This document shows, piece after piece, positions 1 to 56,978 of a DNA stretch of 64,000 bases. The translations under genes and the position numbers were made by a program. The notes below the pieces were generated by a model. The model saw only the letters and a list, made by a program, of their open reading frames with translations. It was not told the origin of the DNA and searched no databases. Each line of letters starts with the position of its first letter. The stretch's first letter is position 1. Origin of the DNA: Candidatus Accumulibacter sp. ACC003 (GTDB taxonomy: Bacteria; Pseudomonadota; Gammaproteobacteria; Burkholderiales; Rhodocyclaceae); NCBI RefSeq assembly GCF_907163085.1, contig NZ_CAJQTX010000003.1, forward strand, positions 62,001 to 126,000, given 5' to 3'.

Positions 1-2
1 AG

Positions 3-146
3 GACGACCCGACGCTGGCGAGCATGATGCTGGTGTTGCCTCTGGTGCCGCTGGAACCGGCATTTTTCAGGAGCGTTCTGGCAAGAAGGGCGTGGCCGGC
101 GCGAAAGCTGCGGCCGTCAAGGACCAGCGGCAGCGCATCGGGATGA
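3..146 (+). CDS. C-terminal tail of a second giant LEPRxLL-type protein (5' truncated by window edge)
   Basis: Reading frame 3 is open from the window edge to a TGA at 144-146. The 47 residues end with a tail very like that of the giant protein encoded at 857-33161: both carry TLAxMMLVLPLVPxEPxFF, then RSxLA, a basic proline-rich stretch and a final ASG. The DNA is also similar through this block, so the fragment is the 3' end of a tandem paralogue. The shared hydrophobic MMLVLPLVP segment near the very C-terminus could be an export or anchoring signal; that is inference. The rest of this gene lies outside the window, so its size and domains are unknown. Confidence 0.8.
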   Translation, partial: DDPTLASMMLVLPLVPLEPAFFRSVLARRAWPARKLRPSRTSGSASG

Positions 147-856: not shown

Positions 857-3800
857 ATGAATCATGTCAAGCGCGCGAGCGCTTCCTCGCCGCGGCTGCG
901 TGGCTTTGGGGCGAAGCCGATCGTCGCGGCCTTGCGCAAGATGATCGCTGCCAATGCCTTCCGCAAGATCGGCGCGAGCGGCAGTGCCGACCGCGCCGCG
1001 TCGTCGAGCTTGCGTTTCGAAAGCCTGGAACCCCGGCTATTGCTTTCCGCAGACGTGTTGCCGTATCCGAATCAAGCGTCGACCACCGACCTGCCGGTGC
1101 AAGTGGCGCCGTGGGTGGACGTCGGTCCCCGGATTGATCTCGGCAGCGGCGCACGGTCGCTGGCGTCGACGGCGGTTGCCGGAACGAATCAGGCCGCTCC
1201 GGCCCGCCCCGGGTCACACGCGATCGTCGTCGTCGACGCCGGCCTTGGTGATTACCAGACGCTGCTTACGGCGATTGCCGCTGGCGAAGATGGCGCTGTC
1301 GGCGGCAGAGCAGGGAAGACCGAGGTTTTCGTTCTCGACCAGGGCGGCAATCGCTTGCTGCAGCAGATCACGGACGCTCTGGACGGAGAAAGCGACGTCT
1401 CGGCGATTCACATCGTGACGCACGGTGGCGACGGCAGCCTGCAGTTCGGCGCCGAGCGCGTTGATGCCGCAGGGCTGGATGCCTATGCCGCGCAACTGAG
1501 CACCTGGAGTCGTGCCCTGACGCCCGATGGCGATATCCTGATCTACGGCTGTGACGTCGGCTATGGGCCGGATGGTGACCGCTTCCTCGCACGCATGGCG
1601 GCGCTGACCGGCGCCGACGTTGCCGCATCGACCGACTTTACCGGCAGCCCGCTGCTGGGTGGCAATTGGCAACTGGAGAAAAGCACCGGTCCAATCGAGG
1701 CGTCGCTGCCGGCGAGCGAGTCCTCCTTGAACCGATACTCGTCGCTGCTCGGCAATCGAACATGGGATGGTGGCGGCGACGGTGTTTCGTGGAGTGACCG
1801 CTTCAATTGGAGTGGCGATCTGGCGCCAGGCGTGAACGACGACGTAATCATCGACGTCGCTGCCGGCGATCCGGCGATCAACGTCTCGGCTGCCGCCGGG
1901 CTGGTGCAGCTGAAGAGCCTGAGCAGCAGCCGGCCAATCACCCTTATGGCGGGGGCAACGCTGCAGGCGTCATCGACGATCGTGCTCAATAGGAGCATGA
2001 CGCTCGCCGGCGGCACGATCGACGGCGGCACGGTCAGTACCGTGGGTGGCGCGAAGCTGCTGGCGACCAGCTCGGGCGGCACCTTGCAGGACGTGACGCT
2101 GCAGGGTGATGCGGCGCAGAGCGAACCGACGGTGCTCGATCTGAGCGGCGGCTACGGCGTCAAGGTCGGCGTCAGCGGCGACCTGACGCTGGCCAACGCG
2201 ACGATCAACGTACAGAACTACGGCCAGCTCAATTTCAGTAGCGCCGCGGCGACGCTGGGCGGCAGCGGCACGGTTCTGTTCGGCGACAACAACAGCTACA
2301 ACAGCGTCCGCGAAGTCGCCAGTGGCGGCCAGCTGACGATCGGCGCGGGGATCGCCGTCACGGGCGCGGGTGGGACGATCGGCTACAACGCCGGCTGGGG
2401 CGGCCCGGCCAACGTTTCGGTGCGCAACCTCGGGAACATCGGTCCCGACCGCGTCGGCACCATCACATTCGCTGGCGCCAGCTTCAACAACCAGGGGACG
2501 CTGCAGGCCAGCGGTGGTGGCACGCTCAATCTCCAGGCGACGGCGTGGAGCAACAGTGGGCTGATTACCGAGAGCAACTCGACGCTCAATCTCGGCAGCA
2601 GCTTCAGCACCGCTGAGCTCGGTAACTACAGTCGCAGTGGCGGCGCAATCAATCTGAGCGGCACGCTGAACAACGCCGGCGGCACGCTGGCGCTGGACGC
2701 CGGCACGGGTTCCTGGAACCTCGCTGGCGGCACCATCCAGGGCGGCACGGTCAGCGCCACGGGCGGCGCGAAGCTGCTGGCGAGCAACCTGGGCGGCACC
2801 TTGCAGGACGTGACGCTGCAGGGTGATGCGGCGCAGAGCGAACCGACGGTGCTCGATCTGAGCGGCGGCTACGGCGTCAAGGTTGGCGTCAGCGGCGACC
2901 TGACGCTGGCCAACGCGACGATCAACGTACAGAACTACGGCCAGCTCACCTTCAGCAGCGCCGCGGCGACGCTGGGCGGTAGCGGCACGGTGCTGTTCGG
3001 CGACAACAACAGCTACAACAGCGTCCGCGAAGTCGCCAGTGGCGGCCAGCTGACGATTGGCCCGGGAATCACCGTCACGGGGTCTGGCGGGACGATCGGC
3101 TACAACGCCGGCTGGGGCGGCCCGGCCAACGTTTCGGTGCGCAACCTCGGGAACATCGGTCCCGACCGCGTCGGGACGATCACACTCGCTGGCGCCAGCT
3201 TCAACAACCAGGGGACGCTGCAGGCCAGCGGTGGTGGCACGCTCAATCTCCAGGCGACGGCGTGGAGCAACAGTGGCCTGATTACCGAGAGCAACTCGAC
3301 GCTCAATCTCGGCAGCAGCTTCAGCACCGCTGAGCTCGGCAACTACAGTCGCAGTGGCGGCGCAATCAATCTGACCGGCACGCTGAACAACAGCGGCGGC
3401 ACGCTGGCGCTGGACGCCGGCACGGGTTCCTGGAACCTCGCCGGCGGCACCATCCAGGGCGGCACGGTCAGCGCCACGGGCGGCGCGAAGCTGCTGGCGA
3501 GCAACCTGGGCGGCACCTTGCAGCACGTGACGCTGCAGGGTGATGCGGCGCAGAGCGAACCGACGGTGCTCGATCTGAGCGGCGGCTACGGCGTCAAGGT
3601 TGGCGTCAGCGGCGACCTGACGCTGGCCAACGCGACGATCAACGTACAGAACTACGGCCAGCTCACCTTCAGCAGCGCTGCGGCGACGCTGGGCGGTAGC
3701 GGCACGCTACTGTTCGGCGACAACAACAGCTACAACAGCGTCCGCGAAGTCGCCAGCGGCGGCGAGTTGACGATTGGCTCGGGAATCACCGTCACGGGCG

Positions 3801-19804: not shown

Positions 19805-21290
19805 CGGCGACGGCACCGGGCAGCCACTCAGCACCGTCCAGACGGTCACCATCAAGGTGCTCAACGTCAACCGTGCGCCGCAGCTGGACTTCATGGCCAA
19901 CCTGCACATCGACCACGATACGGTCGTGCACCTCCCGCTGCAGGCGGTGGACGCCGACGGCGATCCGCTGAGGCTCGCGCTGGTCGGCTTGCCGGCCTTC
20001 GGCGAGTTCGTCGATTACGGCGACGGTACCGGCCAGCTCACTTTCAAGCCCGGGCGCGATGACCGGGGCAACTACACGCTCTCGCTGAGCGCCTTCGACA
20101 ACGGCGACGGCAATGGACCGGGGGCGATTCTGTCGGCTACGCAGTCCTTTGTGCTGAGCGTCGACGCGACCAACGTGCCGCCGCATCTGGCGCCTATCGG
20201 TAACCAGGTGGCGCTGGTCGGGCAGGCCTTGCAGTTCACCATCCAGGCCGGCGACGGCGATCAGGAAGCGCTGGCCTTCAGCGCCGTCGGTCTGCCCGGC
20301 AACGCCAGCATCGCTGCCGGCCCGGCTTACGGCCAGGCCGTCATCAGCTGGACGCCGACGGCGCTCGACGTCGGCAACTACACGGTTCTCGTCAGGGTCG
20401 CCGACGGCGGCAACGGCGATCCGGCACGCTCGCTTGCCGATCAACGCACCTTTACGCTGGCCGTGCGCACCAGCAACCAGGCGCCAGCGTGGCTGTCGTC
20501 CGCCACCCAGACAGCGCCCGCCAGCCAGACGCTGGCGCTGCAGTTGCGAGCGCTTGACGCCGACGGCGACCCGTTGACGTATTCGGCGGCCAATCTGCCG
20601 GTCGGGGCGACGCTCGACGCGCTCGCCGGCGTACTGACCTGGACGCCGCTGTTGGTGCAGGTCGGCAAATACGAGCATATCGTGCTGACCGCCAGCGACG
20701 GCAACCTGGCGACCAGCCAGACGATGAGTATCACCGTCACGCCGGTCAACGAGGCGCCGCGCTTCGTGCCGCTGCCCGCACAGTCGGGCCGCGAGGGAAC
20801 TTTGCTGCAATTCACGCTGGCCGCCGCCGACGCCAACCAGGATCCGCTGACCTACAGCGCGACCTCGGCGCTGCCTGCCGGGGTGCTTCTCGAAGCGTCG
20901 ACCGGGCGCCTGCAATGGACTCCGGACTACCAGCAGGCGGGTGACTACGCGCTCGCCTTCACCGTGACCGATGCCGGTGGTCTGACCGACAGCCTGGCGG
21001 CGCAGCTGCATATCGACAACGTGGACCGGCCACCGACGCTGCTGGTCGATAATCACGGGCTGCTCGTCGGGCAGCCGTTCAGCCTGCAGTTGACCGGTGC
21101 CGATGCCGATCTGGCGACGACCTTGAGCTACTCGGCGAGCGGGCTGCCTGCGGGCGCGACGCTGGACGCCGGCAGCGGGCGCCTGCTGTGGACTCCCGGA
21201 CCGTCGCAGACCGGCGACTTTCCCGTGCAATTTGCCGTCAGCGACGGCGAGTTGACGATCACCCGACCGTCGCTCCTGCGCGTCACGCTC
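18690..21290 (+). repeat. Nine He_PIG / cadherin-like repeats (frameshift lies in the third)
   Basis: Nine Ig-fold modules of 80-100 residues, each with an N-x-x-P start, an A-x-D-x-D-G-D-x-L-x-Y centre, LPxGAxxD and a terminal WTPxxxxxG motif. The pattern matches He_PIG/cadherin-like domains of large adhesins. The T-run frameshift falls within the third module, and the modules on either side align normally, which is the best evidence that both frames belong to one protein. Confidence 0.82.
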
Positions 21291-24200
21291 GCTGCCGTAC
21301 CGCCACAGGTGCTGATCGAGCTGACCCCCAGTTTCCCCGGCGTTCCAGGTTCACCGGTGCTCGTACACGCCGCCGCCAGCAGCGTCGCACCGATCAGCGG
21401 CCTGACCCTGACGGTCGACGGACAGCCGCTCGTCCTTGACGTACACGGTCGCGCGACCTACGTTCCAGCGACGCCCGGTCGCTTTGCGATTGTCGCCACG
21501 GCCAGCGACGGCGACGGCCGCGTTGGCACTGCCAGCAGCGTCTTGAAGGTCCGCGACCCGAACGATCAACTCGCACCGCTGCTGTCGTTGGCAAACCTTG
21601 CGGCCGGCAGCACGCTGACCAGCGTCCTCGATCTGCGCGGCTCGGTCAGCGACAGCAACCTTGACTTCTGGACCCTGGAGTTGGCGCCACTCGGCTCCGA
21701 ACGCTTCACGACGTTGGCTGGCGGCGACAGCTCGGTCAGCGGCGTGCTCTACGCACTCGATCCGGCCAGCCTGGCCAACGGCGTTTATCGCCTGCGCCTG
21801 ACGGCAAGCGATATCAGTGGTCGTACGACGACTACCGAGACGGTCTTCGACGCCAATACGGCGAGCAAGCCGGGAAGCTACCAGCAAGCGGACGTCGATC
21901 TTTCGGCAAATCTCGGCGGCACGGTGGTCCACCTGGTACGTTCCTACGATTCCCTGCAGCACGATGTGGCGGGAACTTTCGGCCTGGGTTGGCGGCTCGC
22001 CAACCGCGACAGCGACATCCAGACCAGCGTCGTGCCGACCGGCGAGGAAAGCCGCGGCATCTACAATCCCTTCCAGCAGGGCACGCGCGTTTACCTGACG
22101 CTGCCCGATGGTCGGCGAGTCGGCTATACCTTTACTCCCGAGAAGCACACGCTCTCCGGCGTCAGCTATTACACGCCCGCGTACCAGGCCGATGTCGGCG
22201 TCGACTACCGGCTCGATTCGGCCGGCGCGGTGCTGATTCGTGGTCCGAAAGGCTTCTACGACGCGCAGACCGGGCAGGCTTACGATCCTGCCAGTGGGCA
22301 GTTCGACGGGCCCGAATACACGCTCAGCGCGCCCGACGGAACCGTTTACCAGCTCAGCGCGGCCAAGGGCGTCGAGCAGCAAGTCCTGCCCGGCGGCGGG
22401 CGCCTGATTTTCACCGACGACGGCATCACCAGTTCGACGGGCGAGGCCGTGCACTTCGTTCGCGATGCGTCGGGGAGGGTCAGCGAGATTATTGGGCCCG
22501 ACGGCCGGCGCGTGGTCTACGCCTACGATGCGCTCGGCAAGCTGACTTCCTTCCACGACACCAGCACGCAGGAAAGCAGCCGCTACGGCTACGCCGGCAA
22601 CGATGCGCCGCGGCTGATCCTGGCGACTTCGCCGTCGACTCAGACGGGTAAGGCGATCGAATACGGCGCCAACGTGCTCATTTCTCCGGTGCTCGCCGAC
22701 CTCGGCGGCCCCGGACAGTTCTCCAATACGCCATTTCACGGCACCCTGACGGCAGGCGCGAGCGATCTTTTGAGCTTCAATCTGCGGCCTCTGGAAATCC
22801 AGTCGACGCGCCAGGGGACGGTCCTCCTGGGAGTCGAACTGCGTGCCGACGTCGGCAGCGCACTGCAACCGGCGCTGCCGACGATCGCCGGGTTGACGCC
22901 GCTGCTGCAGAGGATCGGCAACGGCAGCGCCTTCGCTTTGTTTTCAGTCAGCGACGCGGGACTCGCTTTGCTGCGCATTGCCGGCATTGACGCCGGCAGT
23001 GCCGGCGCTTACACGCTGCAACTCTTCGTCGCTGGCGACGCCAACGAGGACGGCAAGGTGGACGGGCTCGACGCCGCCCTGGTCGCGCAGGCGCTGGGCA
23101 GTTCAAGCGGGCAAGTGACTTACGTGGCCGCCGTCGATGCCAACCGTGACGGCACGATCGACCCGAACGACGCGCAGTTGCTGGGCAGCAATTTCGGCTT
23201 TGTCGCCATCGGTCCGCCGGTCGCCCATTCGTCCGAAGCGCTGACGCACATCGACCTGCCGACTTCGATCGACCTGACGACGCTGGCCAGCGACGCCGCC
23301 GGTGATCCGCTGTTCTTCCGCATCGTCGGCGCGCAGAACGGGATGGCGACGCTGGCGCCCGGTGGCCGTTCGGTGAGCTTCCTTCCCGACGTCGGCTTTG
23401 CCGGGCAGGGCAGCTTCCAGTTCCTGGCTGACGATGGCTATGGCACTTCCGCGGTCGCCACCGTTGTCGTCACTGTCAGCAATGCACCGCTGATCAACCT
23501 GGACTTCCAGGAGCGGGCGCCGCGTTTGCAGCTCGGCGTCATCGGCAGCTGGGACGCGATTTGGGATGTGTCGGTCGGTGACTTCGTTCCAACCGGCCCG
23601 GCGCCAGTGGTCACACCGGTTGACTTCCAGTTCAATGTCTTCGGCGATTTTGCCGACCAGCAGGGCGTGTTCCTGCCCAGCTCGTATCTCACCTTCCAAT
23701 CGACCGACCTGACGGTGGCCAGCGTCTCGTCAAGCGGCCTGCTGCACGCCGTGAACAACGGGAGCACCGCGCTTGTCGTCGCCAGCCACGGCGTCCAGGC
23801 GGCGACTGCGGTCACCGTTGGCATTCCCGAGAGTCTGTTGGGGCAATATCTCTATGCCCTCGGACTCAATGCCTACCCGGGCGCGGTGACCCTCAGCAGC
23901 AAGGATGGCAGCCGCCAGATGCAGGTCTTTGCCGAGGCCGATACGACGCTGTCGATGGACCTTACCGCGGCGGCCGCTGGCACCCGCTACTTCCTCAACC
24001 ATCCGGGAGTGGTGACGGTGAGTGCCGATGGCCTGATCACTGCCGTCGCTGAAGGAAACGCGACGCTGACGGTCATCAACGGCGCTGCTGAATCGCTGCT
24101 GCCGGTGCGCGTCGTGGCGCCTGGCCCGACGGGTCCTGCCGTGCTGGGGTCGGCCGGTGGCGTGGTGACCGCCGTGGACGGTTCTTACGTCGCGGTACCG

Positions 24201-27200
24201 CCGGGCGACCTGGCCGCCGAGACGACCGTCAGCCTGACGTCGGCCACTCTGGCGGAGCTTCCGCAAGCCGTTCCCGACGGTTTCAAGTTCGCCGCAGCGT
24301 TCAATCTCGATGTCGGCGACAAAGCCCTGGCGGTGCCGCTGCAACTCCACGTCAAGGTCGATCCGTCGATTCCCGTCGGCGCGACGGTCTATTTCTACCA
24401 GGCCGGTGAATATCTCAACGACGACGGCACGACGCGGCCGATCTGGTGGCAGGTCGACAGCGGCGAGGTCGGCAGCGACGGGATGGCGCATACCCATTCA
24501 CGCCCCTTCCCCGGCATCAAGGACAAATCCCAGTACCTGATCGCCTACCCGACGGTTGATCTCGGGCGCCTGCAGCTCGAGGCGGCACTGATCCAACAGC
24601 TGGTCCTCACGGTCTCGCTGGCCAGCGCCGGCGGCACGCTGGTCGGCACGCTCGGGGCGGTCAGCGCCGCGGGGATCATGGCCTCGCTGGCGGTTCCTTC
24701 GGCGCCACAACCCTTGCCGTTTGCGATTCAGGTCGTACCGCAGGACGGCCTGCCGATCACGACGGTCTCCGATTTCCAGATCAACCCCAACCAGGTCAGC
24801 AACTACGCGACCACGATCACGCCACCGCCCAGCCTGCCGCCGACGGCGCCGCACATCACCTCGGTCTCGGTCGACCTGAGCAAGACCGATCCGGCCACCG
24901 GCGAATTGCTGCACGAGCTGGTGTTGACCGGCAGCCATTTCACCGACTCGGGACAAAACCCCGACGAACTGTCGGTCAGCTTCAGCATGCCCGGGCCGTT
25001 CAACAGCAAGAGAACGACGACCGTCAGTCCTTCATCGGGCAGTACGGCGACCGAGCTGCACGTGCTCGTGCCGGCGTCGGTCGTCCTCGGTCTCGCGCAA
25101 ATCAGGGTCACCCGGATCGACGCGCAGCAGTCGTACCAGAACGGCGTCGTCGTTTACAACTTCCATCCGGTCGATAGCAACGAGGCGACGATCAACTCCG
25201 AAGGGACCTACGTTTTCGTCGCGCTACCCGAGGGCAAGTACACCCCTGCCGGCGTGCAAGGCGATCTCGCCGTTCTCAATGGCAATCCGATTCTCGGCGA
25301 ACTCGGCGATCTGATCGCCAGGATTCCTCTCGACTCGGCCGAGGACAATCCCTTCCCGCGAGACGTGGCGATTACCCCGGATAACACGCGCGCCTACGTC
25401 ACGCTGCGCGGCTCCGGGCGCGTGGCCGTCGTCGATACCGTGGCGCTGCAGCAAATCAATACCAACAGCGCGCCGCCGCCTGCCAGCAACAAGCCGATCA
25501 GCGGTTCGCTGCACGTCGATCCCGACCTTTTCGGAAGGGAGGTCAGCCGGGCCACGGCGATTCGCGCAACGATCGATATTGCCAATCTTGCGAGCTGGAC
25601 TCTCAGTCTGCTGGCCATGAACGACGGCAGCTCGATGCAACTGGCGACGGGAAGCGGCACGGTAAACAGCGGCATTCTGACCACCTTCGACCCGAAAAAC
25701 TACGCCACCGGGAACTACCGCCTGGAGCTGGTGGCGACCCGGAAGGACGGTCTTTCATTCGTCGATTCATCGGTCTACATCTACTCGAATCAGTTTCCCA
25801 GCGATTCGATTCGCCTGCCCTTCGGTGCCCAGCCCTACGGCATCGCCATCGACCCGGCCGGAAAATACGCCTACGTCGCCGCACAAAGCCCGTATCTCAT
25901 CATGGGCGTCGCATCGTCCTACCTGTTCCAGATCGACATCGACCCGGCGTCGGTGAACTACAACCGGGTCGTGCAAAATATCCGCGTCGGCGGCGAGGTG
26001 TCGCTGTCCGGGGTCGACCAGGGTAACCAGCAAAGCTTTGCCAGCGCTTCGAAGGCACCGTCGGGCCTGCGTAAGGTCGCGGTTTCCGCCGACGGCCTGC
26101 ACGTCTATGTGACGGCTCCGAACGAGAATACGGATCCGAACGGTGGCCACTCGTGGACGAAACTTGCCGGTAATCTGGTCGATATCGATCTGAGCAAGCT
26201 GCAAGCGGGCGACCCGGCGGCCATCAAGTACATCCCGGGAAGTCGCGAAACCTACGGCGTTGCCGTCACTCCGGGCCGCCAGGATGTCGGGTTCACCAAT
26301 GCCGAGGCCGACGCGCTGGGCGTCTTCGTGACCAACTTTGCGGCGAGCCAGAAGCGCACCATTCCGCTCGACCTCGACAAGCTGGCGACCGCGCTGAACC
26401 CGCAACTCGCCGTGCACAACGCCAGCGGCATCGTGTTCACTCCCGACGGCAGTTATGCCTTTGTTGCCGCCCGTGCTGACCAGGTCAACAAGGTCTTCGG
26501 CGGCGAATTCAACGGCTTCAGCTTCAATGGCGGCGGTGTCAGCGGCTATCTCGACCAGAGTGCCAATCCCCTCTACGAAGCCGGTAACGTGGCGATCATC
26601 AAGGATCCCTTGACCGACCATCCGCAGGTGGTCGCGGCAACGCGCCCGACACCGCATGGTTTCCCGGTGGACCTGGCGCTGTCGGCCGATGGTCGCTATC
26701 TCTACGTCAGCTACCAGGGGCTGCCGACCAGCGCTGGCTCGGGTGGGGTGATGGTCTTTGACGCCAGGGCGATGCTGCAGCTGGTCCAGCTGCAGCTGGC
26801 CAAGGATCCCTCGGGCAAGGACATGCGCAAGTACGCGATCGACGACCTGCCGCTGATCAACGGCAATCGCGCGGCGAACGCCGAGATCGACGTGCGCGCC
26901 GACTATCTGCTGCATACCGATACCCTTGACGACGGCAGTACGCTGACGGCCTTCGGGATCCCGGCGGGCAGCAACCGGCCGCCGGTCCTCACCGGCGGCT
27001 TCCCGGGTGGCATCGCGCTGCAGACGCGCTCGTATCCGCTGAGCGTTTACGACGCGTCTGGCGACAACACGCCGGAGACCGTGTTTCAGCATGGCGTCCT
27101 GAAAGTCAGCTTTGGCATTCCCTCTTCGGGGCTTGCCGGGGTCGTGAAACAAATCCAGCTCAAGGCCAAGCCGACCGGTGGCGGCGCCGATGTGCTCCTG

Positions 27201-30200
27201 AAGACCTATAACGGCCAGCAACTCCAGGTTACCGACGAACTCCTGAACCTTGATGTGCTGCTCGCCGGGCCGGCTGGCAGCACGCCGTCCCTGCCAAGCG
27301 AGGGCTACTACAAGATCTATCTGCACCTCGAGTTCGAGAACGGCGCGGCAGCCCAGGACGTCGGTTTCAAGCCGATGATTATTCAGGGCGATCGGGCGGA
27401 TACTGCGGCACCCTTTGTCGCCTCCGACGGCATGATTCGCGGCTCGTTTGCGCCGCAAACGTACAAGCTTGCCGACTACCTCAATGACGGCATCGTCATC
27501 TATGGCGGCGGCGGCACCGATACGCTCAATCTCGGCGTGCTGCCTGCGCAGCTGACGAGTATCGACGGCCGCTCACTCAGTGCTTTCAACAATGCCTGGA
27601 GTTCGCCGCCCAGTCAGGTGATCTACCGGGGAACGGCGTTTGACTACCTGTGTCTGGACACCGGCCAGGAAATCTACTGCCAGGGGATCGAGCGCTTGCT
27701 GTTCTCCGACGGAACGGTCAAGGAACTGCAGGTCCATCCGAGCGATCCTTTCTACAGCCTGCAATGGAATCTGGCCGTCACGGATACCCCCGACGCCTGG
27801 CGTTTCACGACCGGCAGCAGCAAGATCCTGATCGTGTCGGTGGACAACGGCCTGCCCAATGCGCCCACTGGCGTAGACGACCTCGACCCGACGCGGATCG
27901 ATGCTTCGCACCCGGGAGCGGTCTCGTCCTCGGGTAGCGATTCGCATGGCCATCAGTCGATCAGCATCATGTCGGCGATCGTGAACAACGCGCTCGGAGT
28001 CGCCGGCATCAACTGGACCAGCCCGGTTCTCGTGGAAGACCCCTACAACGCCGCAAGTTCCGCCAACTTCTCGGTAAGCGACGCGCTGGCCTACGCCGTT
28101 GCCAAAGGTTACGACCATGTTGTTTTCCAGGGCGGCATTCAAGGCGAAGGCTGGTTGACCAGCGGCGGCACACCGGCCCAGTTGCAGCAACTGATCGCGG
28201 CCAACGCCAATTACGCACTCTTTGCCGTGGCCGCGGGCAACGGTGGAATCGACATCGACATCACGAATCCCGGCAACCCCGTTCTCAGCGGTGGTGTCGC
28301 CCGTTTCGCCGCTACCAACAGCAATGTCATCGCTGTCGGCGCCTTGATCGCCAACGCGAGCGACGCCTTCACCACCCCGGTCTCCTCGCTGACGGCGGCA
28401 GCCGGCCTTCAGAACGCGACGGCGGTCAGCCGCGCCAACTACTCGAACTTCGGTCCGACGCTGACCTTGATGGCCCCGACCGATTCACCGGCGGTAATTG
28501 GCAATGGCACCGTCCTGGGGAATTGGCCCGGGCTCACGCCGGCGTCGAACGGCTCACTTTTCTTCAATGGCACTTCCGCGGCCAATCCGAACATGGCCGG
28601 CTACGCCTCTCTGGTCTGGAGCGTCAATCCCGACCTGACCGGCGGCGAACTGCGACAGCTTCTGATCGACACGGCCAGCCCACTCGCGGCCCGCAAAACG
28701 ACCGGTGTATTCGCGCTGACGGCCGCCGTTCCGGATGCCACGACGACTTCGATCAGCGTTTCGGACTCCTACACTTCTGCCGGACCAGCCTTCTCGCCAT
28801 CCATCTGGGTGATCCGGGTGGGTTCGGAAGACATGCTTGTCACCTCCGTGACGCCCGGTATCGGAAGTTCGACGTATCAGGTGATCCGCGCTTACAACGG
28901 CACGACATCCGCTGCTCACAACAACGGCTTGAGCGTTGTCCGTTTCGCCTACAGCGGTGCGACGGCAAGCGTCGGCACCACCCCCGGCACCGGTCAGAAC
29001 CTGGCCTACGGTTACGGGCTGGTCGATGTCGGTGCCGCCGTACGGCGTGCGTTTGCGCTGACCAGCAATCCGCTTCTCGCCAATTTCTACTTGAGTAACG
29101 GGACCAGGAATCTCGCCGTTGCCGACAGCGGCACGGTGACCGCCGTCAGCATCGAGAGCGTAGCGCTGACCATGTCCGATCTCGATGCTGCCGCGACCAA
29201 TCCGGCGGCCGCCCTTGAGCTCTGGTCCAGCCGCCTGCACGAGGCGGCGGCGATTCAGATCAGCGTCAGCCTGGCAGACCTGCCCGACGGTCAACTCGGC
29301 GAGGCGCGCATTGACGCCGTCGGCGCCGACGGCCTGCCGACCGCCGGTACCATCGTCCTCGACCGCAACGCCAGTGGCCTCGGCTGGTTCGTCGATCCGA
29401 CGCCGCTCGATCACTCCGAATTCTCGACGACGCTCGCTGACACGGCCTTCCGGGCCGCCGCCGATTCGCTCGCTGCCGGCAGGTACGACCTGCTCACCGT
29501 GTTGCTGCACGAGGAAGGCCATCTGCTTGGCTTCAATCCGCTGACGGCCGGCTTTGCCGCCCAGGTGGGGACGGTCGCCGGCTCGCAGGTTTTCGTCGGC
29601 GCCGGTTTCACCGCCCGCTTGTCGCTTGACGGCCAGCACCTGGCGAGCAGCAGCTACGCTGATGATCTGATGAACGATATCCTGGCACCGTCGGTGCGGC
29701 GCCTGCCGTCGGCGAGGGACGTGCAGATTATCGATGCCATCCGCTCGCCGATCGTCGCCCCGTCGATTCTTGAGGCGCTCTTCCCCGAGGCGGTGCTCAG
29801 GGTCAGCGATGCACTTCCCGTCGGCTACGGGCAGCCATCGGCCGCGGCCTTGCTGCATGCGGCGCCGCCGGTTTCGCCAAACGTTAACAACGGTTTTACG
29901 ATTACTGGCGCCGGTGGGCCGCTGCTCGGCTGGACGGAAAGCGGATCGGTCGTGACGACCGTCAGTACGGCAACGCTGAGCGAGAATTCGACCGTCAACA
30001 GCGGTCTGTCGCAAACCTTTGTCGTACCGCTTGGTGCGACGTCGCTCGAGTTCACTCTCGCCGCCAGCGACTTCAGGAGCAATGTCGCCGGCAATCCTCC
30101 CGATGCCTTCGAAGCGGCCTTGCTCGACGCCAGCGGCAACTCGCTTGTCGGCACGGCGACCGGGCTGAGCATGACCGACGCGTTCCTGAACGTTCAGTCC

Positions 30201-33161
30201 GACGGCGACATCTTCTTCGCGCCGGGCGTCAGCGTTTCCGGAAGATCGGTCTCGGGCCAGGGCGGGTCGCTGGCGTCGCCGATCACCGTCAGCGTGGACC
30301 TCGCTGGCGTGGCTGCCGGATCTGCGATCACGCTCTACCTGGACCTGCTCGGATTCGGGCCGTACGACAGTTCGCTGATCCTCGACGACGTGCGTTTCGG
30401 CCTCGCCAACGGCAACCACGCGCCAGTTGCGGTCGACGATCAGTTTGTCGTCAGCGAAGACGTGCCGACGCTGCTCGACGTGCTCGGCAACGACAGCGAC
30501 GCCGAGAACAGCCCGCTGACGGTGACGGTGGTCGCCGCTCCCGGCCATGGCACGCTGACGCAGACGGCTGGCGGCAACTTCCTGTACACGCCGGCGGCGA
30601 ACTACAACGGGCTAGATGGCTTCACCTACACGGTCAACGACGGCCTCCTCGATTCGCGGCTGGCGAGCGTCAGCCTGAGCATCGCAGCGGTCAATGACGC
30701 TCCGCGCGGAACCAGTGCCAGCATCGTCACGCTGGAAGGCACGTCGGCCGTCCTCAAGGCCAGCGACTTCGGTTTCAGCGATCCCGACGACACGCCGGCG
30801 AACGCCTTCAAGGCGGTGATCATCGACAGCCTGCCGAGCGCCGGGACGCTGACACTCAATGGCCTTGCCCTGAGTGCCGGCGCGGTCGTCGAGCTTGCCG
30901 AAATCAACGCCAACGCGCTGCTGTTCACGCCGGCGGCCAAGGCCATCGGCGTGGGCTACGCACAACTGAGCTTCCGCGTGCAGGACGACGGCGGCACGGC
31001 CAACGCTGGCGTCGATACCGACCCGACGGCGCGGACGCTGAGCTTCGACGTCACGGCGGTGAACCATGCGCCGCTGGCGGTCGACGATCAGTTTGTCGTC
31101 AGCGAAGACGTGCCGACGCTGCTCGACGTGCTTGGCAACGACAGCGACGCCGAGAACAGCCCGCTGACGGTGACGGTGGTCGCCGCTCCCGGTCATGGCA
31201 CGCTGACGCAGACGGTTGGCGGCAACTTCCTGTACACCCCGGCGGCGAACTACAACGGGCTCGATGGCTTCACCTACACGGTCAACGACGGCCTCCTCGA
31301 TTCGCGGCTGGCGAGCGTCAGCCTGAGCATCGCAGCGGTCAATGACGCTCCGCGCGGAACCAGTGCCAGCATCGTCACGCTGGAAGGCACGTCGGCCGTC
31401 CTCAAGGCCAGCGACTTCGGTTTCAGCGATCCCGACGACACGCCGGCGAACGCCTTCAAGGCGGTGATCATCGACAGCCTGCCGAGCGCCGGGACGCTGA
31501 CACTCAATGGCCTTGCCCTGAGTGCCGGCGCGGTCGTCGAGCTTGCCGAAATCAACGCCAACGCGCTGCTGTTCACGCCGGCGGCCAAGGCCATCGGCGT
31601 GGCTTACGCACAATTGAGCTTCCGCGTGCAGGACGACGGCGGCACGGCCAACGCTGGCGTCGATACCGACCCGACGGCGCGGACGCTGAGCTTCGACGTC
31701 ACAGCGGTGAACCAGGCGCCGATCGCTGTGGCGGACAGCGCCAGGGTTGACGCGGGCGATTCGGTGTTGATCGACGTCCTGGCTAACGACAGCGACCCCG
31801 AGAATCAGGCCTTGACGCTGGCCAGTGTCAGCCAGCCTGCGCACGGAACGGCCGTCGTCGAGGACGGGCAGGTGCGCTACACGCCGGCCGCCGGCAACTT
31901 CAGCACCGACGACTTCCACTATGTGCTCGCCGACAGCGCCGGTGCCAGCAGCCGTGGCGACGTTCGGGTGACGATCGAGCCGAGAGCAAACCACGCACCG
32001 ACGCTCGACCCGATCGCGGACATCCGCCTCAAGGAAGGGGAAATCCTGACCGTATTTGCCACCGGCCATGATGTCGATAAGGGTGACGCGCTGACTTATA
32101 GCGTGGATGCCTCGTTGGCGGCGGGAGCGCGCATCGATCCGCTCACCGGCGCGATCAGCTGGCGGGTAAGCGATGGTGACGAGCACTATGGTTTCGTCGT
32201 ACGCGTCAATGATTCGGGTGGCGCTTCGGCGACTCGCCGATTCACGGTAAGCGTTGCCAATGTCGCGCCGACGCTGCGTGTGGCCGGCCTGCCGTCGACC
32301 GCCGCCGGCGAGATCTACACCCTGGCGCTGAGCAGTAGCGACCCTGGCGATGACCGCATCAGCAACTGGCGGATCGACTGGGGCGATGGCCAGGTCGTCG
32401 ACTATGCGGGTAACCCGCGGCAGCTTGAGCACCGCTATGGCGCCGTCGCGGGGCCGCTCGAGATCAGGGCGACGGTCACCGATGAGGATGGCAGTTACGT
32501 CGTCGAACCGCTGCCGCTCGTGGTCACGCGACAGCCGTTGCAACTCGCTTCCTTCGCTGTCGACAGCAACGGCGTTGCCGGTAGTGCCAGCGCCGGGCAG
32601 CAAGCCAACGGTGTCGATCGCCTGCCGAGTTCGTCAGCGCCAGGTATCGCCCCTCGCGACACTGTTTTCAGCGCGCCGCCGGGCTTGGCGACCGACGACG
32701 CGACGGCGGCGGCGGAAGTGCGCTTGGCCGTGCTGCCGCAGATCGACTTTCTCCCGCGTCCTGCCGGCTTCCGCTTGCCGGTGGGACTTGGCCGCGGTAC
32801 GCGCGATGAGTGGCGGAAATCGTTCGTGACCAATATGGCGAAGAAATCGGACAACCCGAACAAGGACTTGCGAGTGACGCCCGGGCCGTCGCGACAATTG
32901 CCAGTGGCACCCGAGGAGTTTCTGGAAGATGCACCGGAGGGCACGCCAGAGCGGCTTGAGGAGGGCACGCCAGAGCGTCTGCCCGATCGCGCGCAGGAAG
33001 CGAACGCGGATGGCCAGGACGAAGCGACGCTGGCGGGCATGATGCTGGTGCTGCCCCTGGTGCCGTTCGAGCCGGTATTCTTCAGGAGCATTCTGGCCGC
33101 GCGGCCGGCGAGAAAGGCGAATCCGCAGCCACCGACGACCGGCGGCCGCGCGTCCGGATGA
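19422..33161 (+). CDS. Giant surface protein, C-terminal part with embedded protease domains (continues after frameshift)
   Basis: Continuation of the giant gene in the next frame. The ATG at 19422 is only the first in this frame; the genuine continuation is from about 19446, inside the third He_PIG repeat, so this is not an independent gene. Order by base position: remaining He_PIG/cadherin-like repeats (to 21290); Ig-like segments; YD/RHS-like region (21890-22640); dockerin-like pair of calcium loops (23032-23206); Big_2-like (about 23640-24110); a ZU5-like block (24130-24530); propeller-like YVTN-type repeats (25200-26860); subtilisin-type domain (27815-28700); HExxH domain (29130-29760); two identical-looking Ig-like modules plus a third divergent one (30414-31980); cadherin- and PKD-like domains (31990-32520); then a low-complexity tail with EGTPERL repeats and the MMLVLPLVPFEPVFF motif shared with the upstream paralogue. 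With the frame corrected the whole protein is about 10,767 aa. Confidence 0.88.
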   Translation: MRRSTAFFSVPIRVSNGQASSSQTLAIVVLNANAAPVFENLSDFQILEGQQLQFRAQAFDADNPTWIAPERAADGTLVSSEAGRASVSYAASGLPPGATFDAETQLVTWTPGYGDAGQHTLTITATDDGDGTGQPLSTVQTVTIKVLNVNRAPQLDFMANLHIDHDTVVHLPLQAVDADGDPLRLALVGLPAFGEFVDYGDGTGQLTFKPGRDDRGNYTLSLSAFDNGDGNGPGAILSATQSFVLSVDATNVPPHLAPIGNQVALVGQALQFTIQAGDGDQEALAFSAVGLPGNASIAAGPAYGQAVISWTPTALDVGNYTVLVRVADGGNGDPARSLADQRTFTLAVRTSNQAPAWLSSATQTAPASQTLALQLRALDADGDPLTYSAANLPVGATLDALAGVLTWTPLLVQVGKYEHIVLTASDGNLATSQTMSITVTPVNEAPRFVPLPAQSGREGTLLQFTLAAADANQDPLTYSATSALPAGVLLEASTGRLQWTPDYQQAGDYALAFTVTDAGGLTDSLAAQLHIDNVDRPPTLLVDNHGLLVGQPFSLQLTGADADLATTLSYSASGLPAGATLDAGSGRLLWTPGPSQTGDFPVQFAVSDGELTITRPSLLRVTLAAVPPQVLIELTPSFPGVPGSPVLVHAAASSVAPISGLTLTVDGQPLVLDVHGRATYVPATPGRFAIVATASDGDGRVGTASSVLKVRDPNDQLAPLLSLANLAAGSTLTSVLDLRGSVSDSNLDFWTLELAPLGSERFTTLAGGDSSVSGVLYALDPASLANGVYRLRLTASDISGRTTTTETVFDANTASKPGSYQQADVDLSANLGGTVVHLVRSYDSLQHDVAGTFGLGWRLANRDSDIQTSVVPTGEESRGIYNPFQQGTRVYLTLPDGRRVGYTFTPEKHTLSGVSYYTPAYQADVGVDYRLDSAGAVLIRGPKGFYDAQTGQAYDPASGQFDGPEYTLSAPDGTVYQLSAAKGVEQQVLPGGGRLIFTDDGITSSTGEAVHFVRDASGRVSEIIGPDGRRVVYAYDALGKLTSFHDTSTQESSRYGYAGNDAPRLILATSPSTQTGKAIEYGANVLISPVLADLGGPGQFSNTPFHGTLTAGASDLLSFNLRPLEIQSTRQGTVLLGVELRADVGSALQPALPTIAGLTPLLQRIGNGSAFALFSVSDAGLALLRIAGIDAGSAGAYTLQLFVAGDANEDGKVDGLDAALVAQALGSSSGQVTYVAAVDANRDGTIDPNDAQLLGSNFGFVAIGPPVAHSSEALTHIDLPTSIDLTTLASDAAGDPLFFRIVGAQNGMATLAPGGRSVSFLPDVGFAGQGSFQFLADDGYGTSAVATVVVTVSNAPLINLDFQERAPRLQLGVIGSWDAIWDVSVGDFVPTGPAPVVTPVDFQFNVFGDFADQQGVFLPSSYLTFQSTDLTVASVSSSGLLHAVNNGSTALVVASHGVQAATAVTVGIPESLLGQYLYALGLNAYPGAVTLSSKDGSRQMQVFAEADTTLSMDLTAAAAGTRYFLNHPGVVTVSADGLITAVAEGNATLTVINGAAESLLPVRVVAPGPTGPAVLGSAGGVVTAVDGSYVAVPPGDLAAETTVSLTSATLAELPQAVPDGFKFAAAFNLDVGDKALAVPLQLHVKVDPSIPVGATVYFYQAGEYLNDDGTTRPIWWQVDSGEVGSDGMAHTHSRPFPGIKDKSQYLIAYPTVDLGRLQLEAALIQQLVLTVSLASAGGTLVGTLGAVSAAGIMASLAVPSAPQPLPFAIQVVPQDGLPITTVSDFQINPNQVSNYATTITPPPSLPPTAPHITSVSVDLSKTDPATGELLHELVLTGSHFTDSGQNPDELSVSFSMPGPFNSKRTTTVSPSSGSTATELHVLVPASVVLGLAQIRVTRIDAQQSYQNGVVVYNFHPVDSNEATINSEGTYVFVALPEGKYTPAGVQGDLAVLNGNPILGELGDLIARIPLDSAEDNPFPRDVAITPDNTRAYVTLRGSGRVAVVDTVALQQINTNSAPPPASNKPISGSLHVDPDLFGREVSRATAIRATIDIANLASWTLSLLAMNDGSSMQLATGSGTVNSGILTTFDPKNYATGNYRLELVATRKDGLSFVDSSVYIYSNQFPSDSIRLPFGAQPYGIAIDPAGKYAYVAAQSPYLIMGVASSYLFQIDIDPASVNYNRVVQNIRVGGEVSLSGVDQGNQQSFASASKAPSGLRKVAVSADGLHVYVTAPNENTDPNGGHSWTKLAGNLVDIDLSKLQAGDPAAIKYIPGSRETYGVAVTPGRQDVGFTNAEADALGVFVTNFAASQKRTIPLDLDKLATALNPQLAVHNASGIVFTPDGSYAFVAARADQVNKVFGGEFNGFSFNGGGVSGYLDQSANPLYEAGNVAIIKDPLTDHPQVVAATRPTPHGFPVDLALSADGRYLYVSYQGLPTSAGSGGVMVFDARAMLQLVQLQLAKDPSGKDMRKYAIDDLPLINGNRAANAEIDVRADYLLHTDTLDDGSTLTAFGIPAGSNRPPVLTGGFPGGIALQTRSYPLSVYDASGDNTPETVFQHGVLKVSFGIPSSGLAGVVKQIQLKAKPTGGGADVLLKTYNGQQLQVTDELLNLDVLLAGPAGSTPSLPSEGYYKIYLHLEFENGAAAQDVGFKPMIIQGDRADTAAPFVASDGMIRGSFAPQTYKLADYLNDGIVIYGGGGTDTLNLGVLPAQLTSIDGRSLSAFNNAWSSPPSQVIYRGTAFDYLCLDTGQEIYCQGIERLLFSDGTVKELQVHPSDPFYSLQWNLAVTDTPDAWRFTTGSSKILIVSVDNGLPNAPTGVDDLDPTRIDASHPGAVSSSGSDSHGHQSISIMSAIVNNALGVAGINWTSPVLVEDPYNAASSANFSVSDALAYAVAKGYDHVVFQGGIQGEGWLTSGGTPAQLQQLIAANANYALFAVAAGNGGIDIDITNPGNPVLSGGVARFAATNSNVIAVGALIANASDAFTTPVSSLTAAAGLQNATAVSRANYSNFGPTLTLMAPTDSPAVIGNGTVLGNWPGLTPASNGSLFFNGTSAANPNMAGYASLVWSVNPDLTGGELRQLLIDTASPLAARKTTGVFALTAAVPDATTTSISVSDSYTSAGPAFSPSIWVIRVGSEDMLVTSVTPGIGSSTYQVIRAYNGTTSAAHNNGLSVVRFAYSGATASVGTTPGTGQNLAYGYGLVDVGAAVRRAFALTSNPLLANFYLSNGTRNLAVADSGTVTAVSIESVALTMSDLDAAATNPAAALELWSSRLHEAAAIQISVSLADLPDGQLGEARIDAVGADGLPTAGTIVLDRNASGLGWFVDPTPLDHSEFSTTLADTAFRAAADSLAAGRYDLLTVLLHEEGHLLGFNPLTAGFAAQVGTVAGSQVFVGAGFTARLSLDGQHLASSSYADDLMNDILAPSVRRLPSARDVQIIDAIRSPIVAPSILEALFPEAVLRVSDALPVGYGQPSAAALLHAAPPVSPNVNNGFTITGAGGPLLGWTESGSVVTTVSTATLSENSTVNSGLSQTFVVPLGATSLEFTLAASDFRSNVAGNPPDAFEAALLDASGNSLVGTATGLSMTDAFLNVQSDGDIFFAPGVSVSGRSVSGQGGSLASPITVSVDLAGVAAGSAITLYLDLLGFGPYDSSLILDDVRFGLANGNHAPVAVDDQFVVSEDVPTLLDVLGNDSDAENSPLTVTVVAAPGHGTLTQTAGGNFLYTPAANYNGLDGFTYTVNDGLLDSRLASVSLSIAAVNDAPRGTSASIVTLEGTSAVLKASDFGFSDPDDTPANAFKAVIIDSLPSAGTLTLNGLALSAGAVVELAEINANALLFTPAAKAIGVGYAQLSFRVQDDGGTANAGVDTDPTARTLSFDVTAVNHAPLAVDDQFVVSEDVPTLLDVLGNDSDAENSPLTVTVVAAPGHGTLTQTVGGNFLYTPAANYNGLDGFTYTVNDGLLDSRLASVSLSIAAVNDAPRGTSASIVTLEGTSAVLKASDFGFSDPDDTPANAFKAVIIDSLPSAGTLTLNGLALSAGAVVELAEINANALLFTPAAKAIGVAYAQLSFRVQDDGGTANAGVDTDPTARTLSFDVTAVNQAPIAVADSARVDAGDSVLIDVLANDSDPENQALTLASVSQPAHGTAVVEDGQVRYTPAAGNFSTDDFHYVLADSAGASSRGDVRVTIEPRANHAPTLDPIADIRLKEGEILTVFATGHDVDKGDALTYSVDASLAAGARIDPLTGAISWRVSDGDEHYGFVVRVNDSGGASATRRFTVSVANVAPTLRVAGLPSTAAGEIYTLALSSSDPGDDRISNWRIDWGDGQVVDYAGNPRQLEHRYGAVAGPLEIRATVTDEDGSYVVEPLPLVVTRQPLQLASFAVDSNGVAGSASAGQQANGVDRLPSSSAPGIAPRDTVFSAPPGLATDDATAAAEVRLAVLPQIDFLPRPAGFRLPVGLGRGTRDEWRKSFVTNMAKKSDNPNKDLRVTPGPSRQLPVAPEEFLEDAPEGTPERLEEGTPERLPDRAQEANADGQDEATLAGMMLVLPLVPFEPVFFRSILAARPARKANPQPPTTGGRASG
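19440..19446 (+). other. Frameshift site: run of seven T in the giant gene
   Basis: Seven consecutive T follow GGCG. In the upstream frame the product reads HGVFFGADP and then becomes arginine-rich nonsense. With six T it would read HGVFSVPIRVSNGQ and continue directly into the downstream He_PIG repeats, with no residues lost. A single-base insertion (sequencing error or real mutation) therefore explains the split. Slippage or programmed shifting is possible, but seven T is short for this. Confidence 0.9.
21890..22640 (+). other. YD/RHS-like segment in the giant protein
   Basis: The segment has the composition of RHS/YD proteins: LVRSYDSL, GTFGLGWRL, LPDGRRVGYTF, LSAPDGTVYQL, VRDASGRVSEI and GRRVVYAYDALGKL, the last being a recognisable YD repeat. 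Only a few repeats are present and no toxin-like C-terminal domain or self-cleavage core follows, so it is a structural module here rather than a complete RHS toxin cage. Confidence 0.7.
23032..23206 (+). other. Dockerin-type I-like calcium-binding module
   Basis: Two EF-hand-like loops, DANEDGKVDGLD and DANRDGTIDPND, are separated by a helix-like ALVAQALGSSSG segment. This duplicated loop-helix arrangement is typical of type I dockerins, which often occur in non-cellulosomal giant surface proteins. Calcium binding follows from the loop residues; the partner (a cohesin) is not in this window. Confidence 0.75.
27815..28700 (+). other. Subtilisin-like (S8) peptidase domain inside the giant protein
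   Basis: All four expected motifs appear in the right order and spacing. The Asp motif is ILIVSVDNG (Asp codon 27843, corrected residue 8996); the His motif is SDSHGHQSI (codon 27945, residue 9030); the oxyanion Asn is in AVAAGNGG (codon 28239, residue 9128); the nucleophile Ser is in NGTSAANPNMAG (codon 28575, residue 9240). The last matches the S8 GTSxAxPxxAG signature. With all residues intact the domain is predicted to be catalytically active, possibly for self-cleavage or release from the surface. Confidence 0.85.
29130..29760 (+). other. Zinc-metallopeptidase-like domain with HExxHxxGF
   Basis: A helix YDLLTVLLHEEGHLLGFN carries the HExxH motif (first His codon 29508, corrected residue 9551) in the style of matrixin/serralysin-type metzincins. 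The third ligand expected at HExxHxxGxxH is missing: a proline occupies that position. The downstream DDLMNDILAPSVRRLPS block is of the kind seen after HExxH segments in LEPRxLL-type proteins. The domain may be degenerate or use another ligand; activity is uncertain. Confidence 0.65.
30414..31709 (+). repeat. 648-bp tandem duplication of Ig-like modules
   Basis: Two adjacent 216-codon units begin at AAC codons 30414 and 31062 (NHAPVAVDDQ and NHAPLAVDDQ). They are almost base-for-base identical; a 321-base stretch appears unchanged between copies. Each unit contains two Ig-fold modules of the kind seen in bacterial cadherin-like proteins. A third, diverged half-unit (NQAPIAVADS) follows. The near identity points to recent duplication or gene conversion. 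Confidence 0.93.
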
Positions 33162-33374: not shown

Positions 33375-34121
33375 ATGAACAAGCCGCCCGCGCCACCGCC
33401 AGAACGCCAGGAAAATGCCGGCAGGCGAATGCCCAGGAAAAAAGCTCGGGCGACGGCCAGCGAGCCTGCCGCTGTTGAGTCGGGTCTGGTCGAGCGGGTG
33501 CGCAGCATCGCCGGTCGATTGCTCGACGTCAGTTCGGCGGCTGGCGTCGCCGGACGAACGCTAGAGGCGGCCGGCAAGGTCTCCAGAGCGTTGTCGGACG
33601 GGCAGGCGATCGAGGCGGCAGCCGAGGTCTTGCGCGTCGTCTTGCCGAGTGCGGCGGAAACCGCTGCCTGGGGCCGAACGGGCGCGGCGGTACGCGCCAT
33701 GCGCGAGGCTGCCGGTTTGACGATTGCTGAAGTCGGCGCGGCCATCGACCTCAAGGACCCGTCGCTGATCGAAGCGCTGGAGAACGGTCGGGTGGCGCTG
33801 TCGTTCGAGTTGATCCTTCGCCTGGCGGCGGTTTTCGGTCGTCAGGATCCGCTCGGTTTTGTCATGAAGATGACGCGCACGGCCAACCCGGAATTGTGGA
33901 AGAGCCTCGAAGCCCTCGGCGTCGGCAAGCTGGTGCTGCAGTCGGTTCGCGAACACCAGTTCGTGAACGTCTATCGCAGTAACGACGCCGCGCGGGGCCT
34001 CAGTGACCCGGAGTTTGCCGAGATTCTGAGCTTCACGCAGGCCGCATTCGAGATGGCCATGGCCCAGCGGGAACGCTATAAAGGCCGCCCCGGCAGGGCG
34101 GCAGCCGCTGCCGATCAGTAG
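33375..34121 (+). CDS. XRE-family helix-turn-helix protein
   Basis: A 248-residue protein with a Cro/C1-type helix-turn-helix at about residues 104-160 (VRAMREAAGLTIAEVGAAID, then PSLIEALENGRVALS). The N-terminal third is basic and alanine-rich with an apparent amphipathic helix; the C-terminal region is helical and not recognised. The start is supported by AAAGGA eight bases before ATG 33375. It lies alone between the giant gene and dksA, so its targets are unknown; regulation of the giant locus is possible but only inferred from position. Confidence 0.8.
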   Translation: MNKPPAPPPERQENAGRRMPRKKARATASEPAAVESGLVERVRSIAGRLLDVSSAAGVAGRTLEAAGKVSRALSDGQAIEAAAEVLRVVLPSAAETAAWGRTGAAVRAMREAAGLTIAEVGAAIDLKDPSLIEALENGRVALSFELILRLAAVFGRQDPLGFVMKMTRTANPELWKSLEALGVGKLVLQSVREHQFVNVYRSNDAARGLSDPEFAEILSFTQAAFEMAMAQRERYKGRPGRAAAAADQ

Positions 34122-53715: not shown

Positions 53716-53757
53716 TTCGAGACTGCTGCTGACGCTCGTCGGCCGTTGACGGAAATG

Positions 53758-53784
53758 AAAAAGGCAGCCTTGTGGCTGCCTTTT
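53758..53784. terminator. Intrinsic terminator downstream of rpmE
   Basis: AAAAAGGCAGCC, a four-base loop, and GGCTGCCTTTT form a strong stem with flanking A and T runs. On the minus strand it lies 32 bases past the rpmE stop and ends in five T, so it separates rpmE from the GT39-like gene. Confidence 0.9.
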
Positions 53785-53815
53785 CTGCCGACTCCAGTCG
53801 ACCGCGTGGGCCGGC

Positions 53816-56822: not shown

Positions 56823-56978
56823 CACGATACCTCCGGCTGAAACGTGGACCAATGACCCTCCACCTATCCTGCCAGAAGTCCCCCCGGCTGTCTAGCTCCC
56901 TTGTGCGAAACCTTTTTTGCCTGCCCACCGCAACGCCTTGCCAGTACTGGGCTGGCGCAGTCATGCTTCAGCGCTGGT

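Follow-up and report, generated by a model that had tools for sequence, protein, structure and literature searches.

How might a protein of roughly 10,770 residues reach the surface of a bacterial cell, and is such a protein the product of a single gene? These questions are raised by a gene, here termed giant B, within a stretch of 64,000 nucleotides from Candidatus Accumulibacter sp. ACC003 (the window; positions 62,001-126,000 of the forward strand of contig NZ_CAJQTX010000003.1, hereafter C3). Giant B opens with a LEPR-XLL domain, is currently read in two overlapping frames, and follows a tandem paralogue, giant A. Our analysis indicates that giant B is a LEPR-XLL giant whose most likely, if far from certain, means of export is an operon located upstream of giant A. 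More tentatively, and with somewhat less than even confidence, we propose that this operon specifies a dedicated secretion system, not yet described, composed of DUF3467, GAF-HlyD, PqqD-M50-HlyD, a SecA-like motor, HlyD, and either a TolC or a TpsB pore. This system would serve LEPR-XLL substrates as long as about 20,000 residues that lack a hydrophobic signal, would use its M50 protein as signal peptidase, and would occur in at least two phyla.

An export-like operon upstream of giant A

The operon lies outside the window and encodes DUF3467, GAF-HlyD, PqqD-M50-HlyD, SecA-like ATPase and HlyD proteins (Table 1). In the M50-HlyD protein we find the M50 motifs HELGH and NPLLRYD as well as five hydrophobic segments. 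The SecA-like protein is shorter than canonical SecA and retains the motifs GEGKT, DEAD and GRAGRQGD, and NCBIfam SecA2 models match it below their cut-off. There are two SecA_DEAD matches in the host genome, the canonical protein (a 955-residue frame on contig C2) and the SecA-like protein (a 756-residue frame on C3). Furthermore, no hydrophobic segment was found in the first 300 residues of seven giant N-termini tested. Given the SecA motifs, the M50 segments and motifs, and the giant N-termini devoid of hydrophobic segments, the components fit a route in which the chain is driven by the SecA-like protein, cleaved by M50 and passed outward by HlyD together with TolC or TpsB.

In such a route, the N-terminal LEPR-XLL region would mark the substrate, and the SecA-like motor, by homology and by its ATPase motifs, would drive the chain across the inner membrane. 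Next, the membrane M50 metalloprotease, as part of its fusion with HlyD, may remove the signal and pass the chain on to the HlyD adaptors. Together, the motor of SecA type and the M50-HlyD fusion would take the place of an ABC (ATP-binding cassette) transporter. The outer-membrane step might be performed by TolC in some lineages and by a TpsB pore in others, whose genes are seen beside the operon elsewhere; none was identified for Accumulibacter. Once at the surface, the chain could serve as a long adhesive or matrix fibre.

The operon adjoins giants in all four Accumulibacter contigs fetched, and its position is not fixed. In genome G016, giant B comes first, then the operon, then giant A. 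Giant B of G018 is situated within the operon, between the M50-HlyD and SecA-like genes (contig C6:47700-88293, L029-L031), and is flanked on its far side by a duplicate of DUF3467 and a piece of M50-HlyD from its 3′ end, an arrangement that resembles the insertion of a cassette. Because the gene orders differ in these two genomes, the giant must have shifted relative to the operon, yet it has remained with it.

A role for DUF3467 as a SecB-like chaperone was considered and is not claimed. Its profile searched against the PDB gave a best E value of 0.12, which is not meaningful, and a single-sequence model (predicted local distance difference test, pLDDT, 68.5; predicted template modelling score, pTM, 0.46) found no fold match under E 0.29.

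LEPR-XLL and M50-HlyD occur together in two phyla

We define a strong M50-HlyD match as one of at least 320 bits, a line drawn after the score lists had been seen. Among 299 Pseudomonadota genomes, LEPR-XLL is present in 39 and strong M50-HlyD in 35, the latter in 30 of the 39 genomes with LEPR-XLL versus 5 of the 260 without it, with 255 carrying neither (P = 3.7e-28; this and all following P values ignore kinship among the genomes, which, where related, are not independent). When collapsed to 154 genera, LEPR-XLL occurs in 22, M50-HlyD in 21 and both in 16 (P = 5.8e-13). Similar results are observed in a second phylum, on the Verrucomicrobiota side (for example G358, locus L005, of the Victivallales), where 145 genomes include 11 with LEPR-XLL, 11 with strong M50-HlyD and 10 with both. 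There, strong M50-HlyD accompanies LEPR-XLL in 10 of 11 genomes versus 1 of 134 otherwise, leaving 133 with neither (P = 1.5e-13). Within the host genus (28 genomes), LEPR-XLL is found in 19 and M50-HlyD in 18; 17 carry both, 2 and 1 respectively carry one alone, and 8 carry neither (P = 1.2e-4).

The association extends to gene maps. Site counts are lower bounds, as three candidates per genome were scored among the matches listed in Pseudomonadota, and seven on the Verrucomicrobiota side. An M50-HlyD gene is on the same contig at no fewer than 28 of 53 LEPR-XLL sites, and within 12 kb of the giant's frame at at least 25 of them; this comparison used 45 strong and 7 weaker M50-HlyD rows, and the weaker ones account for 6 of the 25 close pairs. 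At least 36 of the 45 strong M50-HlyD sites have a SecA-like gene within 4 kb. We fetched 32 strong loci, chosen for holding M50-HlyD rows: 20 of the 45 in Pseudomonadota and all 12 on the Verrucomicrobiota side. All 32 have GAF-HlyD next to M50-HlyD or a short distance from it, and 30 have a SecA-like gene, two of these being remote (24-28% identical). By BLAST, DUF3467 was detected in 4 of 4 Accumulibacter contigs, 8 of 20 Pseudomonadota strong loci and 0 of 12 on the Verrucomicrobiota side. A ShlB/FhaC-type (TpsB) pore gene follows the operon in 5 of the 20 Pseudomonadota loci, and SapC is encoded nearby in several loci.

A tree of 40 SecA-like rows, 11 of them from the second phylum, and 18 canonical SecA rows parts the two kinds by one branch with support of 100. 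The canonical rows are from Pseudomonadota only, the SecA-like gene of G070 was left out as a weak match, and four long branches are of unsure place.

Plasmids offer a further view of the module. Thirteen plasmid records hold an M50-HlyD gene at E <= 1e-60, and nine were viewed. In six of these (Methylosinus, Pseudosulfitobacter, Alisedimentitalea, Pontibrevibacter, Mesorhizobium and Thalassospira), a listed gene of 12-38 kb lies directly upstream, and in the other three an unlisted stretch precedes the M50-HlyD module. The order on the Methylosinus plasmid is giant, DUF3467, HlyD, PqqD/M50, SecA-like (annotated as prepilin peptidase), HlyD and TolC, and on the Thalassospira plasmid it is LEPR-XLL, DUF3467, HlyD, M50-HlyD, HlyD and TolC. 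The N-terminal regions of the giants contain LEPRVLL (Methylosinus), FEPRVLL (Pseudosulfitobacter) and MEPRVLL (Pontibrevibacter), and no such motif is evident at the annotated start of the Alisedimentitalea giant. The module parts appear under unrelated generic names in the nine records viewed, and no system is named there.

Weighing the proposed export route

The threshold chosen in retrospect and the kinship among genomes both weigh against an export function for this operon, as do several other observations. Nine of the 39 Pseudomonadota genomes with LEPR-XLL have no strong M50-HlyD match, and the genome of locus L004 has DUF4347 and no convincing M50-HlyD. If any M50-HlyD match at E <= 1e-10 is counted, the proportions in Pseudomonadota become 38 of 39 with LEPR-XLL versus 48 of 260 without, and thus M50-HlyD in this wider sense is common where LEPR-XLL is absent. 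No M50-HlyD gene is present within 12 kb of 28 of the 53 LEPR-XLL sites, among the matches listed. The nearest M50-HlyD gene to giant B itself is 42 kb away, across giant A, and the third giant of the host genome is on a different contig from M50-HlyD. Locus L103 has no SecA-like gene, L100 has none within the 2.8 kb available, and the Thalassospira module has no annotated SecA. Nor is the C-terminal tail motif of giant B a universal signal, because only 11 of 23 giant ends fit a pattern that was written after part of the set had been seen (looser look-alikes occur, by eye, in three more); a universal C-terminal sorting signal was therefore dropped. Finally, a LEPR-XLL giant of Vibrio is reported to end in RTX domains (PMC10868602), which points to ordinary type I secretion in that organism.

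The published RTX-bearing giant also lends weight to an alternative in which the operon is a system for peptide maturation and export that lies beside the giants for another reason, such as small-signal processing or regulation, while the giants leave by type I secretion or the general Sec route. Indeed, the M50 and PqqD-like parts resemble those of ribosomally synthesized and post-translationally modified peptide systems, and the best partial NCBIfam match of the M50-HlyD protein is to a daptide intramembrane metalloprotease (157 bits, cut-off 300), with PqqD and LiaK models weaker. However, no ABC transporter was found among the neighbouring proteins scanned, a scan that left aside some small open reading frames and unlinked genes. 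A hydrophobic signal is likewise missing from the first 300 residues of the seven N-termini tested, and the link to giants recurs in both phyla. We therefore regard this alternative as unlikely, and giant B stays a candidate for export by a route whose defining features, taken together, match no known secretion type.

Which features are shared with known systems? Like the type I secretion of LapA and RTX giant adhesins, the proposed route has HlyD adaptors, in some carriers a TolC gene next to the operon, and a very long repetitive substrate. It differs in having a SecA-like motor and M50-HlyD where an ABC transporter would be expected, and no RTX family was matched in Pfam and NCBIfam scans of giant B at E <= 0.01. 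Like accessory Sec, it pairs a second, shorter SecA-like ATPase with a large surface protein, but its partners are HlyD and M50, and no SecY2 or Asp genes were found among the neighbours scanned, the rest of the genome lying outside that search. To our knowledge, the known accessory Sec systems are those of Gram-positive bacteria. The TpsB-type pores after some operons recall two-partner secretion (TpsA/TpsB), whereas a scan of residues 1-3200 of giant B revealed no TPS N-terminal domain, and SecA-like and HlyD genes are present here. Judged by their listings, no papers in the one open-access library searched, which excludes subscription journals and preprints, describe such a SecA/HlyD/M50/LEPR export system, although two contain the terms themselves (PMC8277102, PMC7352654). 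In that library DUF4347 appears in 4 papers and LEPR-XLL in 2, and none combines Accumulibacter with a giant protein. Export of LEPR-XLL giants is at present inferred from genomes only.

A single gene across a change of reading frame

The first-pass annotation proposed that the two frames of giant B constitute one gene once a single base is corrected. We assessed this on the separate pieces, without joining or mending the frames, and their true portions sum to about 10,768 residues, in agreement with that proposal. Evidence comes from a relative in the Accumulibacter metagenome-assembled genome G016 (G016_B), which carries the giant as a single open frame of 10,565 residues. Over the 496 residues preceding the junction, the first frame aligns to G016_B without gaps and at 86% identity, ending at residue 5978 of that protein; the second frame takes over at that residue, at 81% identity. 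Ratios of nonsynonymous to synonymous substitution rates (dN/dS) versus G016_B are 0.212 for the first frame and 0.235 for the second, and versus the G018 relative they are 0.216 and 0.228, with 0.386 for the last 1066 codons, although units in the repetitive part may be mispaired in these comparisons. By this measure, both sides of the junction are under purifying selection.

The change of frame falls within a He_PIG domain and sits on a T7 run that is the sole homopolymer of seven or more in giants A and B (69 kb together); elsewhere in the window there are two more, both intergenic. Because of this placement, an assembly error at the homopolymer is the likeliest explanation. Might giant B instead be a decaying pseudogene, or two separate genes, such that no protein of 10,768 residues exists? 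The first frame does stop at position 19804 after the frame has changed, the G018 relative, which is open at the junction, is split farther on, and the third giant of the host genome also appears split. This last gene, on contig C11 at about 283001-303000 (L083 of genome G000), has an 8757-residue frame with an out-of-frame tail, followed by a 4415-residue frame. However, the intact relative, the low dN/dS on both sides (0.21-0.24 versus G016_B and 0.22-0.39 versus G018) and a break inside a domain, on the one long homopolymer, make decay or division improbable.

Slightly less probable still is a frame change that is real and used, either through slippage on the T7 run to give a 6315-residue product alongside the full protein, or as a phase variation switch. 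Such a mechanism would account for the change being located exactly on the run and for the splits in other giants. Nevertheless, homopolymer sequencing error is the commoner cause, and both relatives examined lack the T7 run at this place; the site is thus not conserved. A single gene with an assembly error accordingly remains our preferred interpretation.

Table 1. Features of giant B and of the upstream operon (window positions, or contig positions where prefixed C3).
Feature	Position	Strand	Remarks
Giant B, first frame	857..19804	+	6315 residues; true frame to about residue 6196
Giant B, second frame	19422..33161	+	4579 residues; true frame from about residue 8
T7 homopolymer, site of frame change	19440..19446	+	G016 and G018 relatives open across this place
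LEPR-XLL domain (NF012209)	1010..1075	+	residues 52-73; 32.5 bits, cut-off 17; follows a basic N-terminus without hydrophobic signal
DUF4347 (PF14252)	1223..1750	+	residues 123-298; 168.1 bits, cut-off 24.6; H189 at 1421-1423, C232 at 1550-1552
Repetitive Gly/Thr/Asn-rich stretch	1760..6800	+	near-identical units; limits approximate, by eye
CARDB (PF07705), best of several	14243..14575	+	153 bits for the protein piece
He_PIG domain in first frame	18707..18964	+	Pfam scan
RHS/YD repeat (PF05593)	22464..22556	+	25.2 bits, cut-off 22
Dockerin type I (PF00404)	23031..23183	+	42.8 bits, cut-off 22.9
Subtilase S8 (PF00082)	27924..28685	+	55.7 bits, cut-off 21.8; putative triad by eye: D 27843, H 27945, S 28575
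HExxH metallopeptidase-like stretch	29364..29537	+	HEEGH at 29508-29522; below NF038122 cut-off
Big_9/cadherin-like repeats and PKD domain	30414..32495	+	profile scan
C-terminal tail motif IDF...W(R)K.F(V)..M...NPN..LRV	32742..32876	+	also present in further giants, both within the genus and in some cases beyond it
Giant A, upstream tandem paralogue	C3:25370-62146 (3′ end at window 1..146)	+	12,258 residues; intact
DUF3467	C3:16818-17153		
GAF-HlyD	C3:17276-19141		
PqqD-M50-HlyD	C3:19152-21299		
SecA-like	C3: about 21244-23301		
HlyD	C3:23246-24232		
251-residue protein	C3:24248-25003		three hydrophobic segments

Domain architecture of giant B

Pfam and NCBIfam scans were run on protein pieces with curated cut-offs, and matches were listed at E <= 0.01. 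Above the cut-offs are LEPR-8K (NF012209), DUF4347, CARDB, He_PIG, Big_9, Big_5, Dockerin_1, RHS_repeat, Big_2, cadherin-like, Peptidase_S8 and PKD_4. From the list of domains first read from the sequence, LEPR-XLL, DUF4347, CARDB, He_PIG, YD, dockerin and S8 are thus upheld, whereas Calx-beta gave no match in either database. Propeller and HExxH segments are matched below cut-off (YVTN propeller, 18.2 bits against 27.85; NF038122, 19.8 bits against 80), and the HEEGH motif is plain in the sequence. No named beta-solenoid family was matched either, but the Gly/Thr/Asn-rich stretch, repetitive to the eye, is probably a beta-solenoid. A tandem repeat finder reported nothing at a score of 100 with periods up to 500, a setting that repeats of about 700 bases could escape.

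The combination of domains had also seemed unusual, a view that finds no support within this group. The host genome (13 contigs, 5.39 Mb) encodes three LEPR-XLL giants, and its genus has 43 LEPR-XLL sites in those 19 of 28 genomes, in open frames of up to 14,708 residues. Giant A has a layout like that of giant B, including CARDB, He_PIG, Big_9, dockerin, Big_2, propeller, cadherin-like and PKD segments (some matches below cut-off), and its C-terminus is 69% identical to giant B over 328 residues. The last 385 residues of giant B were searched for in 61 relatives and found in 25, representing 5 of 34 genera. Outside the genus count, LEPR-XLL also occurs in open frames larger than giant B, of 20,466 (G373) and 19,427 (G121) residues. 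Giant B shares with the family defined by NF012209 (LEPR-8K) the N-terminal domain, a very large size, and Ig- and cadherin-type repeats. That NCBIfam entry defines the domain only, and the searches made found no stated link to a SecA/M50-HlyD operon.

DUF4347, present once in the host genome, is probably a clan-CD cysteine protease that keeps a His/Cys pair, with putative activity. His-Gly and Gly-Cys are invariant in all five aligned rows, and the two best relatives in named genomes, both Accumulibacter metagenome-assembled genomes, are 71% and 73% identical. A predicted structure (pLDDT 72.8, pTM 0.76) has as its best PDB fold match chain 9qpe_G, which is Tce1 (E 2.6e-5, template modelling (TM) score 0.51, 19% identity), and a profile of the DUF4347 rows also retrieves Tce1, at E 0.024. 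In the structure search, second and third place go to a flavoprotein and an aminotransferase, and caspase and legumain chains match only at E 1e-3 or weaker (TM 0.35-0.44). Against viral models, two matches at E <= 0.001 have no useful names, and some caspases rank lower. Tce1 is PA0256 of Pseudomonas aeruginosa, which is reported to contain DUF4347 (PMC8262886) and to be a putative cysteine protease whose His/Cys pair is placed as in the protease domain of C. difficile toxin B (PMC13323088). The likeness comprises family, fold match and His/Cys pair. Whereas Tce1 is a free-standing cargo of the type VI secretion system, DUF4347 of giant B is the N-terminal domain of a LEPR-XLL giant, where, by analogy, it may act on its own chain, cleaving it close to the N-terminus. 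More broadly, the DUF4347, S8 and HExxH segments might cut either the giant or its neighbours.

By eye, the C-termini of four other giants (L067, L069, L073 and L074) have a metallopeptidase-like block before an IDW...NPN tail, with an HExxH motif that is degenerate in L067. A third His of the metzincin-like kind is retained in three of the four and absent from giant B.

Several neighbours of giant B merit mention. Directly downstream is a helix-turn-helix protein, possibly a regulator (33375-34121; HTH_31, HTH_3), and farther along a gene for a membrane protein resembling PMT_2 mannosyltransferases might take part in surface glycosylation (52081-53865). Transposase-related genes are located at 46979-48289 (DDE_Tnp_1_4) and 54400-56964 (DDE_Tnp_1_assoc).

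Implications

How the largest bacterial proteins are exported over two membranes is poorly understood, and although LEPR-XLL giants have been named, the searches made found no export route for them. If the association described above holds, then a four-gene module makes the route directly testable in culturable carriers such as Methylosinus, Thalassospira and Pontibrevibacter. The view that giant B is a surface protein is plausible, and is better grounded by the export-like operon beside its paralogue. In a paper on the Accumulibacter matrix (PMC12016536), the word adhesin, alone among the terms looked for, occurs, three times in all. Accumulibacter is the central organism of biological phosphorus removal, and its giants are candidate protein components of floc and granule matrix.
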